DNA of 7,107 nucleotides from Pseudomonadota bacterium (GTDB taxonomy: Bacteria > Pseudomonadota > Gammaproteobacteria > Acidithiobacillales > Acidithiobacillaceae): assembly GCA_021840785.1 (NCBI GenBank), contig JAKBXD010000097.1, positions 1-7,107 of the forward strand, in the 5' to 3' direction. The notes under the pieces were generated by a model. It had not been told where the DNA came from and did no database searches. It was given only the letters and a program-made list of their open reading frames with translations. Positions 349 to 7,029 of the stretch are shown in pieces. How positions within the stretch are numbered: position 1 is the first letter of the stretch; every line of letters starts with the position of its first letter. The position numbers were made by a program, and so were the translations under genes.

Positions 349-363
349 CTAAGGAGAAGTAGC

Positions 364-1158
364 ATGTTGAAGCGAGTTGCGGTATTGGTAGCAGTAGCAT
401 CGCTGGGTATGGGCAGTGCAGTGGCAGGGACTGGATGGGGGGACCATGTAGTCATCCCCGAGCCGGTTATACCGTCTCACTTCATCCCGAAGCACTATCA
501 TTTTCACAAAGAGCCAGTACGGGGACCACAGGGACCACAGGGACCACAGGGACCACAGGGACCACAGGGACCACAGGGACCACAGGGACCGCGAGGACCA
601 CAGGGTATCCCTGGCAAGAACGGCGTGGTGAACTACACGAAGGTGGACCAACAGATTAGCGCGGGGGACAAGACTACCCTTTCTACTTCCGAGCAGTACA
701 CCAACGTCAAGTCTACCCAGACGCTCACTGCGGCTAACAGCTACACGAACGAGGTCAATCAAGCCACGTATCAGGCAGCGGAGAATTACTCCAACTCTGG
801 GGACCAAGCGACTCTGCAACAGGCCAACGTCAACGCGCAAGGATATGCGGCGCAGGCTCAAGCCAACGCAGAGCAGTATGCTCAAGGCGCAGCAAATCAG
901 GCGCAGGAGAACGCGGAGCAGTTTGCCGCTTCGGGTATCGCCGCAGCTCTCGCCATGCCCAGTTCCCCCGTCCTCGCTCCGGGTCAGGTGTATGTCGGTG
1001 CGGAGATGGGAACCTATGACGGTCAGCAGGCGATTGGCGCAAAAGCAACGTACCAGATCACTCGCCGCTGGAATGCGAACGTGGGCGTGTCCGGTGGGTT
1101 TGGTCAGTACGGCCACACTGCGGTAGCAGCAGGGGTTGGATATACGTTCGGAAATTGA
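364..1158 (+). CDS. secreted collagen-like protein with YadA-type trimeric outer-membrane anchor
   Basis: A 264-residue modular surface protein. Residues 1-21 form a signal peptide (Lys-Arg, hydrophobic core, SAVA before the likely cut). Residues 22-53 are a Pro/His linker including HYHFHK. Residues 54-89 are twelve Gly-X-Y triplets (seven GPQ, then [15 protein letters not shown]), able to form a collagen triple helix. Residues 90-187 are a Gln/Asn/Ala-rich stalk with aromatics at 112, 127, 142, 172 and 187, all on a 15-residue register. Residues 188-264 match the YadA C-terminal anchor pattern: a hydrophobic helix, then four short beta strands ending GVGYTF. Such anchors trimerise in the outer membrane and carry their own stalk outside, which agrees with the trimeric collagen module. 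ATG at 364 has AAGGAG 7 bases upstream. Finding it beside phage replication genes suggests lysogenic conversion, adhesion or receptor masking (inference). A virion fibre is less likely because of the signal peptide. Confidence 0.85.
523..603 (+). repeat. 9-bp tandem repeat encoding Gly-Pro-Gln collagen triplets
   Basis: The 9-mer GGACCACAG occurs seven times without a mismatch at 523-585. It is followed by a variant copy at 586-594 (GGACCGCGA, Gly-Pro-Arg) and one more exact copy at 595-603. The unit is three codons, so gain or loss of copies keeps the reading frame and only changes the length of the collagen rod. Identity at the DNA level, including third codon positions, suggests recent expansion by slippage or recombination rather than selection on protein alone. 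Confidence 0.95.
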
Positions 1159-1165
1159 CGATTTT

Positions 1166-1189
1166 GGCCCGGCACTCCCGGGCCTTTTT
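1166..1189 (+). terminator. intrinsic (Rho-independent) terminator after the collagen-like gene
   Basis: GGCCCGG (1166-1172) pairs perfectly with CCGGGCC (1178-1184) across a 5-base loop, and five T residues follow at 1185-1189. The GC-only 7-bp stem plus U-tract is a textbook terminator. It starts 7 bases after the TGA of the collagen-like gene and ends only 14 bases before the polymerase start. Transcription entering polA from upstream must therefore read through it or be antiterminated. Confidence 0.85.
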
Positions 1190-1203: not shown

Positions 1204-3342
1204 TTGAATAAAACAACAACCGTCGTTTTCGACTTCGAGACGTTCTATTCTGCTAAGTACAGCGTAAAAACTATGAGCTACACGGACTACGTGGACGACG
1301 AGCGGTTTTTGGTTCACGGCATGGCCGTATGTGGGGGTGTGCCTGCGGAGTTTCTTGGGCAGGATGACGTGCCAGAGTTTTTTGCGTCCCTGCCTGATCG
1401 GACCATATTGGTGTCCCACAACAGTCTGTTTGATTTGACCGTTGTCGCGCGTCATTACCGGCTGTCGGCGCTGTTTCACCAAAAGCGGTTCAGTTTCATT
1501 GACAGCATGGGGCTTGCAGCACTGCTGCGCGGGAATTACACCCTACTAAACCTCAATGCGCTGACTGGGCAAAAGACCGAGGGACTGGCGAACACCAAGG
1601 GTAAGCGGGAACTGACGCCGGAGGAGTATGAGGCACTGGTGCAATACGCGATCAACGACGCCCGGATCACGGAAGGACTGCTGCGGGATTTGCTGCGCGA
1701 AGGGACTGGGCGCCTAGGGCGTGAGCTGCTACGCAAAGAGTTACAGGTCATGGACTACACGCTGAAGCTACTTCTGGTGGACCCTGCGCTGGATCGGAAT
1801 ACGAGGCCGGTGCTTTGCTTGGACCGCGTTGTGCTGGAGCAATGCCACCACGACGAGCTACGGAAAGAAGATACCCTGTTGAGCGGGGTGGCTGCGGCGT
1901 TACGGATCAGCACAAAGGAGCTGGAGACCATCATCCGGTCGCGTGTCAAGTTCCCGAAGCTGCTGGAGACGCATGGGGTTGCGGTGCCCAAGAAAATCTC
2001 CCCGACCACGGGCAAAGAAACCTGGGCCATGGCGAAGAGCGACACGGCGTTCCTCCAGCTTCTGGAGCGGTACGGCATCACCGAGGACACGGACGTAGAG
2101 GAAAATATCAGCGTTGCGGACCATGAAACGCTCATCAAGCATCTGCTACTCATGAAAGTGCGACTCGGCAGCACGATCTTACGGACCCGTTCGGAGCGGA
2201 TGCTGCGGCTGAACCTGGAGGGCCAGGATACATTCCCGATGCCGGTATACCTTCGCTATTACGGGGCGCAGAACACAGGTCGGTGGTCGGGTGAGAACAA
2301 GTTGAATCAACAGAATTTTCCGCGCGGCTCCTTGATCCGCTCCGCTATCGTCCCTCCACCGGGGCATAAGATCGTCGTGTGTGATTTCTCCTCCATTGAA
2401 GCACGGGTGCTGGCGTGGCTGGCAGGAGAGGACGATCTGCTAGACGCTTTCCGTGCCAACAAAGATGTGTACATTGAGCAGGCGAAGAAAATCTGGCCCT
2501 CCCTCGCGGGGCTGCCGGACAAAGTTATCAAAGATGAGCATGGGCTTAAACGGCAGGTCAGTAAAGTAACGATCCTTGGTCTGGGGTACTCCGCTGGTTG
2601 GGCGGTGTTGGAGCGGCTACTTCGTCTCGGCCTTATGGGTCCGGCGGTGTTGTTGGATCGGGAGACCGCCGAAGGACTCGGCGTTGAGCGGGAATGGGTA
2701 CTGGACCGCCTTCAGCGGCAGAAAGACTGGCGTAAGGAACAAGCCGGGGATGACCCAGAGAAGCTACAAGACGCGAAAGCCTGGTGGGAAGGCTTGATGT
2801 TGCCCCTCCAGAAAGACCTGGCAATCCTGTGGCACTATGGCGCGGCGATGCGGCTGGTGGATATTTATCGGGAAGCGAACCGGAACATCGTGGCGTTTTG
2901 GAAGCGCATGGGCGCATTGGACGGCGGCGAACACTGTGAGTGGGTAGAAGAAACCTATCAGGGCGTACCTACCATGACCCTGCGCCTCCCTGACGGCAGC
3001 CTGCTTCCCTTTCCACACCTGCGCTACTCAGACGACGAGCGCGGACGGATACTGTACCGACAGAAAGGCGTGATTCAGCATACCTACTCTGCGCGCCTCG
3101 CAGAGAATGCGACGCAAGCCACCGCCCGAGCGCTACTTCGAGATGTTTGGATAGAAGCGGTCAAAGCAGGCGTACCTGTATGCCACTCGGTGCATGACGA
3201 GCTCGTGTCCGTGGTCCCAGAGCAAGATGCAGAGGACGCTCGTAGCGCGTTGCTGGAGATCATGTCCAAGCCCCCCGCGTGGGCGCCAGACTTGCCCGTG
3301 GCGGCGGAAGCGAAGATTTTGGACAGCTACGCGGGGAAGTAA
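1204..3342 (+). CDS. polA: phage family A DNA polymerase with 3'-5' proofreading domain
   Basis: A 712-residue replicative polymerase, close in length to T7 gp5, without an N-terminal 5'-3' exonuclease. The proofreading domain is DEDDy type: D10 and E12 in FDFETF, D77 in HNSLFD, and Y148/D152 in YAIND. The polymerase domain has TGRWSG at 358-363, motif A DFSSIEAR (D394, E399), motif B with R450 and K454 (RQVSKVTILGLGYSAG) and motif C HDE (H664, D665, E666). All metal-binding aspartates are present, so the enzyme should be active. The residue equivalent to E. coli Phe762 is Leu458, a type common in environmental phage polymerases; Tyr766 corresponds to Tyr462. The start is TTG at 1204; a later ATG would remove motif I. 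A terminator precedes the gene and a promoter follows its stop by 4 bases, so it may form its own transcription unit. The gene symbol denotes the family, not orthology to bacterial polA. Confidence 0.96.
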   Translation: MNKTTTVVFDFETFYSAKYSVKTMSYTDYVDDERFLVHGMAVCGGVPAEFLGQDDVPEFFASLPDRTILVSHNSLFDLTVVARHYRLSALFHQKRFSFIDSMGLAALLRGNYTLLNLNALTGQKTEGLANTKGKRELTPEEYEALVQYAINDARITEGLLRDLLREGTGRLGRELLRKELQVMDYTLKLLLVDPALDRNTRPVLCLDRVVLEQCHHDELRKEDTLLSGVAAALRISTKELETIIRSRVKFPKLLETHGVAVPKKISPTTGKETWAMAKSDTAFLQLLERYGITEDTDVEENISVADHETLIKHLLLMKVRLGSTILRTRSERMLRLNLEGQDTFPMPVYLRYYGAQNTGRWSGENKLNQQNFPRGSLIRSAIVPPPGHKIVVCDFSSIEARVLAWLAGEDDLLDAFRANKDVYIEQAKKIWPSLAGLPDKVIKDEHGLKRQVSKVTILGLGYSAGWAVLERLLRLGLMGPAVLLDRETAEGLGVEREWVLDRLQRQKDWRKEQAGDDPEKLQDAKAWWEGLMLPLQKDLAILWHYGAAMRLVDIYREANRNIVAFWKRMGALDGGEHCEWVEETYQGVPTMTLRLPDGSLLPFPHLRYSDDERGRILYRQKGVIQHTYSARLAENATQATARALLRDVWIEAVKAGVPVCHSVHDELVSVVPEQDAEDARSALLEIMSKPPAWAPDLPVAAEAKILDSYAGK

Positions 3343-3346
3343 AGGG

Positions 3347-3375
3347 TTGCATTTGGTCCCACCGCGCCGTATAAT
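3347..3375 (+). promoter_or_regulatory. sigma70-type promoter P1
   Basis: TTGCAT (-35, 3347-3352), a 17-base spacer and a perfect TATAAT (-10, 3370-3375) lie just after the polymerase stop. The expected start of transcription is 3382-3383, about 25 bases before the next ATG. A second promoter at 5577-5605 matches this one at 32 of 41 aligned positions from the -35 box through a downstream CATGGA, including GGTCCCAC in the spacer and GCCG before the -10 box. Two independent near-copies in correct geometry make the call strong. Host RNA polymerase should read it. Confidence 0.88.
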
Positions 3376-4048: not shown

Positions 4049-4945
4049 ATGAAAGAACTTGGAAGGCTAGTGAGTAAGACGGCGGTGTATGCCATCATCA
4101 AAATGACCAAGGATGGCTTGGTGCTGCGGAATGACGACACGGATTTGGAGTTTGATACGTATCTATCGCGGGCCAAGATGACCCCGTTCACGGTGATGAC
4201 GGACGACGAAGGGCTGCGCGCCCATGTGGAAGGGGTGGAGGGGATTGAGGTCACGTCTTTACAGTCGCGCTCCGAAGATATTCAGACCATCACTTTCCCT
4301 TTGTCCTATTCCAGCATAAGTACCTTTGGTACTTGCCCTCGTCAATTCCAACACCTACACGTCCTCCAGGACGTAATAAACGAAAGTAGCGCCGAGACGA
4401 TTTGGGGGTACGAGTGTCGTAAGCAGATTGGGGATTATATTACCCATGGCGCAGGTATAACGGAGCCGGTTGCACAGAACGCCATCCCCTATTTGAACTC
4501 CATCAAAGCCCAAGACGCGAAAGCGGAATGGAAGTGGGGGCTGACCAAAGATTTTGAGCCCTGTGATTTCTCGGCGCCGGACGTTGCTTATTACGATACG
4601 GCGAACTACTTGGCGCTTTTGGAGGGCGGTCGGGCGTTTGTGGTTGCGTGGGAGATGGGTGACGCTACGGACGACTTTGGCAAGATGGATTTGTTTGCGT
4701 TGGCTACGTTCATCCACCATCCCGACGTTCAGAAGATACGTGGTATGTACGTCTGGTTAAAGACTAATACCCACACCAAGAAAGACTACACCAGAGCCGA
4801 CGTGGACCGCTTAAAAGAACAGGTGCGAGAAAAAGCAAAGCCGGTTTTGCGTGGTGTAGTACGCGGAGAGTTCCCTACCAAGCCCAGCGGTTTGTGTCGG
4901 GGGCGGTGTCCCGTCAAGGAGTGCCCGGAGTACAAGGAAGTTTGA
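4049..4945 (+). CDS. PD-(D/E)XK (RecB/Cas4-like) nuclease-fold protein, probably catalytically inactive
   Basis: A 298-residue protein. From residue 85 it follows the phage Cas4/RecB-like exonuclease family: LSYSSISTFGTCPRQF (C96), a WG helix at 119-131, a segment around E and D183, a core strand at 196-204, then PSGLCRGRCPVKECP at the C-terminus with C283, C287 and C292. Together with C96 these could bind an Fe-S cluster. However, the core motif that normally reads Asp-x-Lys-Thr-Gly is AWEMG (200-204), so the metal-binding Asp and catalytic Lys are replaced by Ala and Glu. The usual His of the WG helix appears to be Arg124 and its Glu to be Gly128. The frame is intact with a good start (GGAG at 4038-4041, ATG 4049), so this looks like a maintained protein with changed function, perhaps DNA binding or scaffolding. 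Residues 1-84 form an extra N-terminal segment I do not recognise. Family assignment is secure; inactivity is inference from a by-eye alignment. Confidence 0.8.
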   Translation: MKELGRLVSKTAVYAIIKMTKDGLVLRNDDTDLEFDTYLSRAKMTPFTVMTDDEGLRAHVEGVEGIEVTSLQSRSEDIQTITFPLSYSSISTFGTCPRQFQHLHVLQDVINESSAETIWGYECRKQIGDYITHGAGITEPVAQNAIPYLNSIKAQDAKAEWKWGLTKDFEPCDFSAPDVAYYDTANYLALLEGGRAFVVAWEMGDATDDFGKMDLFALATFIHHPDVQKIRGMYVWLKTNTHTKKDYTRADVDRLKEQVREKAKPVLRGVVRGEFPTKPSGLCRGRCPVKECPEYKEV

Positions 4946-4989: not shown

Positions 4990-5604
4990 ATGGTTTTGCA
5001 AATAGGGCTACTCGGGCCTGCCAACGCCGGTAAAGATACCGTCGCGGATATGATCGTCGAGTTTTTTGGCGGAGTGGTGCGGAAGCATGCTTTTGCCGAT
5101 GCGTTGTATGCGGAGGTAGCGGAAGCGTTTGAGGTGAGTGAGGACTACCTTCGCGACCGGAAATGGAAAGAGAAGCCTTCTCTGCGGCTCTCCCCACGAT
5201 TCTGCTTGGACGACGCCTTTGTACAGGTGTGTCGGGAGGTAGGGGTGTCGGTGATGTCCGCGCTCTCCCCTCGTCGTGTGTTGGAGCTATGGGGTATGGA
5301 ATACCGTCGGGCGCAGGACGCGGATTACTGGGTACGGAGGCTGGTAGATAAGGGCGGTGACGTGGTGATCTCGGATGTCCGGTTCTCCAACGAACTGCAA
5401 ATTGTCGCAGTACCACTCATCGTTCGGCGCCCTGGTCACGAGATTCTGCGAGACCATCGCAGTGATACCCTATGGCGGCGGGTAGAGGGCGTGCCCGAGG
5501 TGTGGAACACAGGGAGCCTGGATCAGTTGCGTAAGTCCGTGATTGATCTGCTGTCGGCGCTACCTAAAGAAAAGACTTGCATCGGGTCCCACTCAGCCGT
5601 ATAA
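4990..5604 (+). CDS. deoxynucleoside monophosphate kinase
   Basis: A 204-residue cytoplasmic P-loop kinase that would phosphorylate dNMPs to dNDPs with ATP, supplying precursors for the phage polymerase; T4 gene 1 product is the best-known member (somewhat longer). Walker A is GPANAGKDT (G9, G14, K15, D16, T17) right after the first beta strand. SPRRVLELWGMEYRR at 93-107 fits the family's Arg-x-x-x-Gln-x-x-Gly-Thr-Glu region, with Glu99 in place of the usual Gln. SDVRFSNE at 128-135 matches the conserved Asp-x-Arg-Phe-x-Asn-Glu signature that helps bind the nucleotide monophosphate. The start at 4990 is supported by a G-rich Shine-Dalgarno (4978-4983). The TAA stop at 5602-5604 forms part of the -10 box of promoter P2, so the 3' end of the gene doubles as promoter. 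A dephospho-CoA kinase relative is less likely given the phage context. Confidence 0.88.
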   Translation: MVLQIGLLGPANAGKDTVADMIVEFFGGVVRKHAFADALYAEVAEAFEVSEDYLRDRKWKEKPSLRLSPRFCLDDAFVQVCREVGVSVMSALSPRRVLELWGMEYRRAQDADYWVRRLVDKGGDVVISDVRFSNELQIVAVPLIVRRPGHEILRDHRSDTLWRRVEGVPEVWNTGSLDQLRKSVIDLLSALPKEKTCIGSHSAV

Positions 5605-5605
5605 T
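5577..5605 (+). promoter_or_regulatory. sigma70-type promoter P2, near-copy of P1
   Basis: TTGCAT (5577-5582), a 17-base spacer and TATAAT (5600-5605) lie in the last codons of the kinase gene; the kinase TAA stop is bases 3-5 of the -10 box. The spacer shares GGTCCCAC and GCCG with P1 at identical offsets, and CATGGA follows at the same distance (5612-5617). The expected start of transcription is 5612-5613, giving a leader of about 40 bases before the gene at 5654. Confidence 0.88.
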
Positions 5606-5653: not shown

Positions 5654-6007
5654 ATGGAATGCTACCCCCAGTTTGCTACCGGCGAACAGTTGCTCAACCT
5701 CGCCGAGTTGAGAGAGGACCGCGCCGCCGAGCGTGAGTCCGAAATCTTTGATGCTGAGCGCGAAATCCTGCGCTACCCCCAGAGCATCGTCGATGCGTTC
5801 GACAACCAGGAAAGCGGAGATGATGTGCAGAGCGTCTACTTGGCGCTTGCCAAGATGTTCCAGGAGTACAAGTCTACCGCTCTTAGTTACGACGACCGCG
5901 TTAAGGGGATTTTTGACATATTCTGCCACGAGATAGCGCCCGTTTACGAACGGTGTGTCGGCAAGGAAGCGAAGTACCGGGCGAAAAATACGGAGTGCGA
6001 CCAGTGA
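5654..6007 (+). CDS. acidic helical protein of unknown function, 117 residues
   Basis: First gene behind promoter P2. The frame is open further back (to an ATG at 5543 inside the kinase gene), but that start lies upstream of the promoter. ATG 5654 has GGGAG at 5643-5647, 6 bases away, and is chosen. The protein is rich in Glu, Asp, Arg and Ala, with long predicted helices at about residues 10-42 (charged, possibly coiled coil) and 57-75, followed by FDIFCHEIAPVYERC. It has no signal peptide, membrane segment or recognised catalytic motif. Its TGA overlaps the GTG start of the MazG-like gene (GTGA at 6004-6007), suggesting coupled synthesis. I do not recognise the family. Confidence 0.82.
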   Translation: MECYPQFATGEQLLNLAELREDRAAERESEIFDAEREILRYPQSIVDAFDNQESGDDVQSVYLALAKMFQEYKSTALSYDDRVKGIFDIFCHEIAPVYERCVGKEAKYRAKNTECDQ

Positions 6008-6303
6008 ATACCAACGAGCGCGTCGTGCGGTGGGCGGCGGCTCGTAATCTGATCCACGGCAGCGACCCCAAGAACCAGACCATCAAGTTAGGGGAGGAGT
6101 TCGGCGAGCTATGCGCTGCCATCGCGCGGGGTAGCACCTAGGAAGCTGTAGACGCCATCGGAGACATGGTTGTTGTACTTACTATTCTGGCCGCGCAGTT
6201 AGGGACCAGTATTGAGGCGTGCCAAGATGCGGTTTGGGAGCAGATCAAAGACCGCAAGGGCCGCATGGTAGACGGTATGTTTGTGAAGGAGGGTGAGGGG
6301 TGA
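6004..6303 (+). pseudogene. MazG-like nucleotide pyrophosphohydrolase, interrupted by an in-frame amber codon
   Basis: Read from GTG 6004 to TGA 6301-6303, this frame gives a 99-codon protein with one internal TAG at 6139-6141 (codon 46). Before the stop it has KLGEEFGEL with the EExxE metal-binding motif. After it come DAIGDM and VVVLTILAAQLG, matching the second Asp-containing motif and helix, and the family-typical end IKDRKGRMVDG. Both halves are in one frame, so this is a point nonsense change, not a frameshift. MazG enzymes hydrolyse NTPs or dNTPs (and in some phages are linked to ppGpp) to NMP and PPi. The amber falls in the loop between the motif-bearing helices, so a product ending there should be inactive. 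No good restart is visible: ATG 6166 has GGAG only 2 bases upstream. Options are a recent mutation (CAG or GAG to TAG), a base-call error, or amber suppression. GGAG at 5992-5995 serves the GTG start. Confidence 0.82.
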
Positions 6304-6864: not shown

Positions 6865-7029
6865 ATGAAGATTGTGGACGATGTGGAATTTGTACGGAAA
6901 GAATTGGAGAAGTTTGGGTTTACTGCGGACGATTTAGCCCTTCGTTGGGTTGGGGAGGGGGGGGGGGGGGGGGGGGGGGGGGGTTGGGTGGGGGGGGGGG
7001 GGGGGGGGGGGGGAGTGCGTCGTAATTAG
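6865..7029 (+). CDS. start of an unknown gene, corrupted by a poly-G tract
   Basis: ATG 6865 has a strong GGAGGTG at 6854-6860. The first ~30 codons read as a charged helix (MKIVDDVEFVRKELEKFGF, then TADDLALRWVGE) with normal composition. From 6957 the sequence is almost pure G, giving a run of glycines. As written, the frame ends at TAG 7027-7029 after VRRN. This end is probably false: the next frame (from 7013) continues with credible coding sequence to the window edge. The most likely picture is one gene running off the window, with its middle lost or mis-read. Confidence 0.55.
   Translation: MKIVDDVEFVRKELEKFGFTADDLALRWVGEGGGGGGGGGWVGGGGGGGGVRRN
6957..7013. repeat. poly-G tract (27 G, TT, GGG, T, 24 G), probable sequencing artefact
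   Basis: A run of 27 G (6957-6983), a short TTGGGT, then 24 G (6990-7013). Nothing like it occurs elsewhere in the window. Two-colour Illumina chemistry calls dark cycles as G, and long G runs in assemblies commonly come from this. The flanking sequence is itself G-rich (GTTGGGTTGGGGA), so a shorter real G tract may have been extended. The length in bases should not be trusted. Confidence 0.8.

Follow-up and report, generated by a model that had tools for sequence, protein, structure and literature searches.

The locus described here raises the question of why a phage would carry, directly beside its DNA polymerase gene, a gene for a small protein that joins a collagen-like rod to a YadA-type membrane anchor, and where such a protein would act. 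The window (the whole stretch of DNA analysed, 7,107 nucleotides) represents part of a phage genome. A phage family A DNA polymerase, a PD-(D/E)XK exonuclease, a deoxynucleoside monophosphate kinase and a MazG-like frame are all encoded on the + strand, and the gene at 364..1158 is located directly 5' of the polymerase gene within this replication block. The initial annotation, made from the sequence alone, had described a phage gene beside a phage DNA polymerase, in agreement with the phage nature of the contig and the polymerase at 1204-3342. The features are:

351..356, +, ribosome binding site AAGGAG, with the ATG 7 bases downstream
364..1158, +, gene of the trimeric-autotransporter-like protein (264 aa), whole gene including stop
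364..426, +, signal-peptide-like segment, residues 1-21 (MLKR, hydrophobic core, AVA; read from the sequence)
427..522, +, His/Pro-rich N-terminal tip, residues 22-53 (32 residues), expected outermost
522..605, +, 9-bp tandem repeat, consensus GGGACCACA, 9.3 copies
523..630, +, collagen-like tract, residues 54-89, 12 Gly-X-Y triplets, the last being GVV
628..921, +, stalk, residues 89-186, 15-residue periodicity, helical prediction from residue 91 (residue 89 is common to the collagen tract)
922..1155, +, YadA-type membrane anchor, residues 187-264, helix end and four beta strands
1166..1184, +, intrinsic-terminator-like hairpin, 7 G-C pairs followed by TTTTT, between the 364..1158 gene and the DNA polymerase gene
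1204..3342, +, family A DNA polymerase (phrog_17), listed with a TTG start
3347..3375, +, promoter-like element TTGCAT-N17-TATAAT, copy 1 of a 29-base repeat, TTGCATnnGGTCCCACnnnGCCGTATAAT
4049..4945, +, PD-(D/E)XK exonuclease, context gene
4990..5604, +, deoxynucleoside monophosphate kinase (phrog_139), context gene
5577..5605, +, promoter-like element, copy 2 of the 29-base repeat

Phage context and architecture of the protein

Polymerase and exonuclease match Rhizobium phages such as RHph_TM3_14A among the phage records (30.5% and 25.2% identity, respectively). No annotated adhesin was found around the polymerase of this phage or of Pseudomonas phage KPP25, also a relative by its polymerase; in both, most of the genes nearby are hypothetical. 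In IMG/VR, no relatives of the exonuclease or the kinase were detected, and the locus matched by the polymerase (30% identity) contains no collagen or YadA-type gene by eye within its 7.7 kb. Five terminator-like hairpins are present in the window compared to 6.3 expected in shuffles, and the fold z of the hairpin at 1166..1184 is -1.4; neither value is exceptional. The TTGCAT-N17-TATAAT pattern, which was derived from its own two copies, occurs twice with 0 expected in shuffles. Both copies are absent from the sigma-70 scan list of the window and neither lies within the 363 bases 5' of the gene at 364..1158; the element is perhaps the phage's own promoter signature. The frame of the MazG-like pyrophosphatase (6007-6303) is interrupted by a single in-frame TAG at 6139-6141 and is open again to 6303; the gene may be broken, the sequence may contain an error, or the stop may be read through. 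Two long G runs (6950-7013) close to the end of the contig probably arose as an artefact of assembly or sequencing.

Signal peptide, collagen repeats, stalk and YadA-type anchor, which the initial annotation had read in the 264 residues, were all found, the first as a signal-peptide-like start. The proposed HMM search placed the anchor (YadA_anchor, PF03895) above the Pfam cut-off (E=1.2e-7; 32.1 bits, cut-off 22.7), whereas the collagen tract, with triplets of the GPQ type, stayed 0.4 bits short of it (26.8 versus 27.2). A simple signal-peptide rule is positive for the protein, with the cut placed earlier, at residue 12; the same rule is positive for 14 of 121 control open reading frames. The 15-residue period of the stalk gives z=7.3 in the window protein alone and z=22.4 across 16 relatives, the latter value being inflated by kinship. 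A repeat of this length is described for right-handed YadA stalks. No head-domain family was identified with Pfam or NCBIfam, as had been supposed. The collagen rod had been taken for the whole exposed end; it is retained as part of that end, but the His/Pro-rich tip of 32 residues (22-53) lies beyond it.

The AlphaFold monomer has a low mean pLDDT (51.3), yet the helix and four strands are visible; helices 91-145 and 148-196 are predicted at low confidence. In VIA-align, the anchors of AtaA and Hia top the structural alignments with the model by a clear step, and phage YadA-like proteins rank 1, 2, 6 and 7 in a viral structure library, none of them at E<=0.001. Foldseek gave no significant match for the model and a profile search of PDB sequences matched nothing. 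From its sequence modules, localisation of the protein in the outer membrane is well supported. By analogy with the family, it is probably routed via Sec and BAM, trimeric and exposed at the surface.

Close relatives and counterparts in isolated phages

Among 744 candidates, 47 database proteins match residues 89-264 at E<=0.001. They carry no telling names and are mostly encoded on contigs of a few kb; the closest metagenomic relatives are known from contigs of 0.8-2.7 kb only and may or may not be phage genes. In the nearest full-length relatives (P0001, P0002, P0004 and P0006; 65-86% identity), signal, collagen, stalk and anchor are all kept, with 5 to 9 collagen triplets compared to 12 in the window. 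The tip is identical at only 7 of 32 positions in P0004 and 4 of 32 in P0006, while the anchors are identical at 76 and 72 of 78 positions, respectively. P0001 and P0002 share 29 of the 32 tip residues with the window protein. P0001 has 21 collagen residues fewer, which at the protein level would correspond to seven 9-bp units, and a stalk identical at 90 of 98 positions. Other family members have longer and quite different passengers, some with YadA-type necks, and P0129 and P0131 match YadA_stalk. Tip and collagen length thus vary over an almost constant anchor in the close relatives, and passengers vary among the other members, so that the anchor appears as a fixed base on which the outer parts are swapped and resized. 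P0008 and P0012 have near-identical passengers on two different anchor types, seen in their sequences as a sign of passenger-anchor swapping in the metagenomic family.

A pattern search of the genome collection gave five loci. Two of them, in Acidithiobacillus sp. HP-2 and in a sulfur-cave MAG, are 57% identical, the other three, all from Burkholderia, 34-37%, and the plasmid collection gave one Variovorax adhesin (51% identity over the anchor). The whole window protein had no match at E<=1e-3 in 50,697 phage records (tblastn), and no relative in IMG/VR by single-protein search. An alignment search of IMG/VR found four loci, all via the collagen stretch and none via the anchor; at one of them a second match (28%) reaches residue 223.

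Proteins with YadA anchors in isolated phages were reached via the anchor of the HP-2 protein, which led to Burkholderia phage FLC9, and via the window anchor, for which the E values of the phage hits were no better than 0.06 to 8; the protein of phage Munch was then used as query. This query matched 80 phage records, and 17 of the 18 proteins considered stem from the best 60 of these, FLC9 being the other one. From 20 fetched loci 18 proteins were translated. Those left out are Aeromonas phage D3, whose gene (over 1000 aa, annotated as YadA-like and for recognition of the host receptor) is cut by the fetched stretch, and phage 15G, which has no annotation but a signal-like start and a YadA-type end. 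A YadA-type C-terminal segment is present in 18/18. In Pfam searches with ten of the proteins the anchor was above the cut-off in all and collagen in five. The signal-peptide rule was positive for 15/18 with the annotated start and for 18/18 with the annotated or another start; the 121 control frames are other open reading frames of the same loci, one ATG each, not known to be genes. Six of the 18 proteins carry collagen shafts, 17-44 triplets long: phiEco32 gp119, EK5, TR2 gp24, FSL SP-076, Munch gp428 and RF1.

The YadA-like gene adjoins a dUTPase gene in TR2, SP-076, S6 and AAM22 and tRNA genes in GAP32, XbC2, SW16-7 and Hena1, and is two small genes away from DNA polymerase I in RF1, so that 9 of the 18 have such a neighbourhood. 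A helicase gene lies within 1 kb in phiEco32 and EK5; around the remaining genes, most neighbours are hypothetical. Genes annotated as tail, structural or particle genes occur in the fetched stretches of AAM22, Hena1, RF1 and fHe-Yen8-01. The 18 are variously annotated as tail protein, adhesin (7/18), receptor binding or hypothetical, and some duplicate records as agglutinating adhesin. In Pantoea phage AAM22, the gene of a collagen-bearing structural protein (L042:3507-4970) adjoins the collagen-free YadA-like gene in opposite orientation, and in Erwinia phage S6 an annotated lipoprotein gene directly precedes it (L039:847-1680), possibly encoding a helper or an exclusion lipoprotein. Where classified, the phages with such genes presumably belong to lytic groups, while some, e.g. 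RF1, are unclassified. A likeness to yadA was noticed in SP-058, SP-076, phiEco32 and N4-like phages and a part in virulence was proposed in PMC3728262 and PMC10654107. The word collagen is absent from the main text of PMC3728262, and among the top-listed matches in an open-access library, judged by title and abstract opening, none is centred on collagen-bearing YadA proteins of phages.

For comparison, 398 bacterial genomes were drawn evenly from the phylum; 50 of these encode YadA anchors at E<=1e-6 (114 matches). The median length is 406 aa for the 18 phage proteins and 1106 aa for the 114 bacterial matches (open-frame lengths, including a few fragments). Forty bacterial genes were read from the frame of the anchor, 20 taken evenly down the list and 20 picked as short. 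A collagen run of at least 8 triplets was present in 1/40 of these and in 6/18 phage isolates, or 4/14 phage lineages in our own grouping. The excess in phages gives p=0.0026 by isolate and p=0.013 by lineage (Fisher). By lineage without Munch, the query and itself a collagen bearer, p is 0.042, and without Munch against the short bacterial copies only (1/23) it is 0.12. That collagen is commoner in phage than in bacterial YadA-anchor proteins is thus suggestive and not firm, because of the value in this strictest comparison.

An anchor tree (31 rows, 82 columns), which is of modest power and carries a long-branch warning, places the window in a 14-row set (95/95), together with the anchors from metagenomes, Acidithiobacillus, the sulfur cave and Variovorax. 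Another branch (83/85) has the 16 phage rows on one side. The tree does not include EK5 and SKML-39, and 15G is misframed in alignment and tree. Collagen-shafted proteins occur at three places among the phages: TR2/SP-076/phiEco32, Munch and RF1. Since the window anchor groups with the Acidithiobacillus adhesin and apart from the phages, the combination of collagen and anchor probably arose separately, and from these sequences we infer at least two origins in phages.

Role in infection

The role we favour, with confidence close to even, is that of a short, minimal trimeric autotransporter (type Vc) made during infection, which remodels the host surface and most likely hinders the adsorption of other phages. 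The signal peptide would lead to export of three chains through Sec, and their C-terminal segments would form one 12-strand barrel via the host BAM complex. The stalk with its 15-residue repeats would rise from this barrel. The His/Pro-rich tip would be carried away from the membrane by a collagen triple helix, about 10 nm long for 36 residues with a rise of 0.29 nm per residue. A cell surface remodelled in this way would adsorb fewer other phages and less of the cell's own progeny. Tip sequence and rod length would change fast, through recombination and slippage of the 9-bp repeat.

An adsorption block, which like adhesion and aggregation had been named among the possible roles initially, is ranked first because such proteins are kept in several unrelated phage groups which we take to be lytic, because the gene lies in the replication block, and because exposed tip and rod vary in close relatives around a constant anchor. 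A further reason is that a homologue is dispensable in a T4-like phage: an open reading frame with a YadA anchor lies within a region deleted in viable escape mutants, according to PMC5449768. For this reading as a whole, the Pfam anchor, the alignment with AtaA and Hia, the 15-residue stalk, the same build and signal starts in isolated phages and the neighbourhoods of 9/18 genes were counted in favour. Counted against it were the receptor-binding and particle annotations, the tail filing in PHROGs, the structural genes near the copies of AAM22, Hena1 and RF1, the low-confidence monomer model, the failure of Foldseek and the PDB profile search to match, and the short metagenomic contigs.

Ranked second is aggregation, i.e. 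the same outer-membrane protein would clump infected cells with each other, with uninfected neighbours or with surfaces, so that progeny reach new hosts. Known trimeric autotransporters are mostly adhesins, and the adhesin and agglutinating-adhesin labels among the phage copies as well as the His-rich, variable tip would fit this account. On the other hand, these labels probably rest on the anchor alone, Pfam finds no head domain, and clumping prior to lysis might cost the phage through rebinding. We consider a primary role in stickiness possible but doubtful.

It is unlikely, and ranked third, that the protein is part of the virion, with collagen and the YadA-like C-terminal fold as the trimeric shaft and tip of a tail fibre or spike. 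A signal-peptide start is found in the window protein and in 15/18 isolates compared to 14/121 control frames, the four-strand membrane anchor sits at the extreme C-terminus and the window gene belongs to the replication block. Moreover, the yadA homologues of SP-058 and SP-076 are seemingly not near tail genes, as noted in PMC3728262. These points stand against several annotations. In PHROGs, phrog_26246 and phrog_17426 are filed under tail and one further matching family under unknown; the SW16-7 homologue is annotated for recognition of the host receptor, and a tail fibre assembly gene lies less than 1 kb from the YadA-like gene of RF1. Collagen and YadA domains also occur in proteins assigned to phage tails, according to PMC7029224 and PMC3909814. 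Detection in virions as a fibre, named initially as a finding that would refute the anchored surface protein, is touched by one annotation: gp92 of Yersinia phage fHe-Yen8-01 is labelled both as a receptor binding protein and as associated with the phage particle, and further genes with a particle label lie nearby. No paper on this phage was found in the open-access library; the label could be true or reflect membrane carry-over.

Still less probable is lysogenic conversion, in which a temperate phage, as had been assumed initially, would change the host surface stably, in the manner of E. coli Eib proteins. Eib is listed as phage-borne, with a solved stalk under Enterobacteria phage P, in PMC7247746. 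The terminator-like hairpin 3' of the gene and the anchor identical at 52 of 75 positions to that of Acidithiobacillus sp. HP-2 point in the same direction. However, no integrase, repressor or other lysogeny family was detected in the nine window proteins scanned, the 7.1 kb being part of a phage, and the classified phages with such genes are, we presume, lytic. Nor did the suggested check for an integrated prophage, which also covered spacers, bear it out: in 29 Acidithiobacillaceae genomes (the family of HP-2; up to 10 candidates scored per genome) the window DNA matched over at most 47 bases, the best short match (E 4.5e-4) lying inside an adhesin anchor. The host is therefore a guess. The same 29 genomes contain nine YadA-anchor matches in eight genomes, and since just one of the nine has the window-type anchor, an Acidithiobacillus host is a weak lead. 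A chance cargo gene from the host, useless to the phage, is very improbable: the anchor is close to a bacterial one and the whole protein has no match in the phage records searched, but frame and modules are kept in P0001, P0002, P0004 and P0006, and the same build is kept at three other places of the phage tree.

Comparison with known systems

The bacterial proteins with the most similar anchors differ from the window protein in their passengers. The trimeric autotransporter of Acidithiobacillus sp. HP-2 (L007) and that of the sulfur-cave MAG labelled Phycisphaera mikurensis (L006; anchor identical at 53 of 76 positions) have the same FG-type C-terminus, but are 756 and 716 aa long, respectively, with head-like repeats and no collagen by eye. 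In both, an OmpA-like lipoprotein gene follows the adhesin gene (by eye; L006:2572-3084 and L007:10405-10932), and none is found beside the phage gene; it possibly encodes an assembly helper of adhesins with this anchor type. AtaA and Hia are long adhesins with large passengers, and the prophage-borne Eib proteins likewise have larger passengers; none of these is known to contain collagen. PMC7247746 lists a structure of Eib, also a trimeric autotransporter, under Enterobacteria phage P. In VtaA of Haemophilus parasuis Nagasaki, a YadA anchor at the C-terminus comes after collagen repeats, as in the window protein, but VtaA is encoded by bacterial genes and has an extended signal peptide and YadA heads, as described in PMC6211672; the pairing of collagen and YadA anchor is therefore not restricted to phages.

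Collagen-like tail proteins of phages (PHROGs 1806, 5073 and 6320) share the Gly-X-Y tract with the window protein, and their matches span the tract or the stalk, never the anchor. A signal peptide is not expected in such tail proteins.

The closest counterparts in build are the collagen-bearing YadA-like proteins of enterobacterial phages (phiEco32 gp119, EK5, TR2 gp24, FSL SP-076, Munch gp428 and RF1; 226-441 aa), in which signal peptide, collagen shaft, stalk and C-terminal YadA anchor follow each other as in the window protein. They do not match the whole window protein at E<=1e-3, their anchors lie across the 83/85 branch from it (the tree lacks EK5) and have Trp at the end instead of FGN, and TR2 and Munch have charged collagen of the GKDG type where the window protein has GPQ. 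To date, phage YadA homologues have been regarded as possible virulence genes, in PMC3728262 and PMC10654107, or as tail proteins, by their filing in PHROGs. Considered jointly, they give the impression of a type of surface protein of infected cells, and the group seems under-described rather than unknown. Our broader proposal, which we put forward tentatively and well short of an even chance, is that phages of Gram-negative bacteria have evolved short trimeric autotransporters with a collagen shaft several times, independently of each other, for remodelling the surface of the infected cell, with a slippage-tuned rod and a fast-changing tip that would keep rival and sister phages off. The same build in other phages suggests an ability of phages to give an infected cell a new surface, a point of interest for the question of how such a cell wards off further phages.
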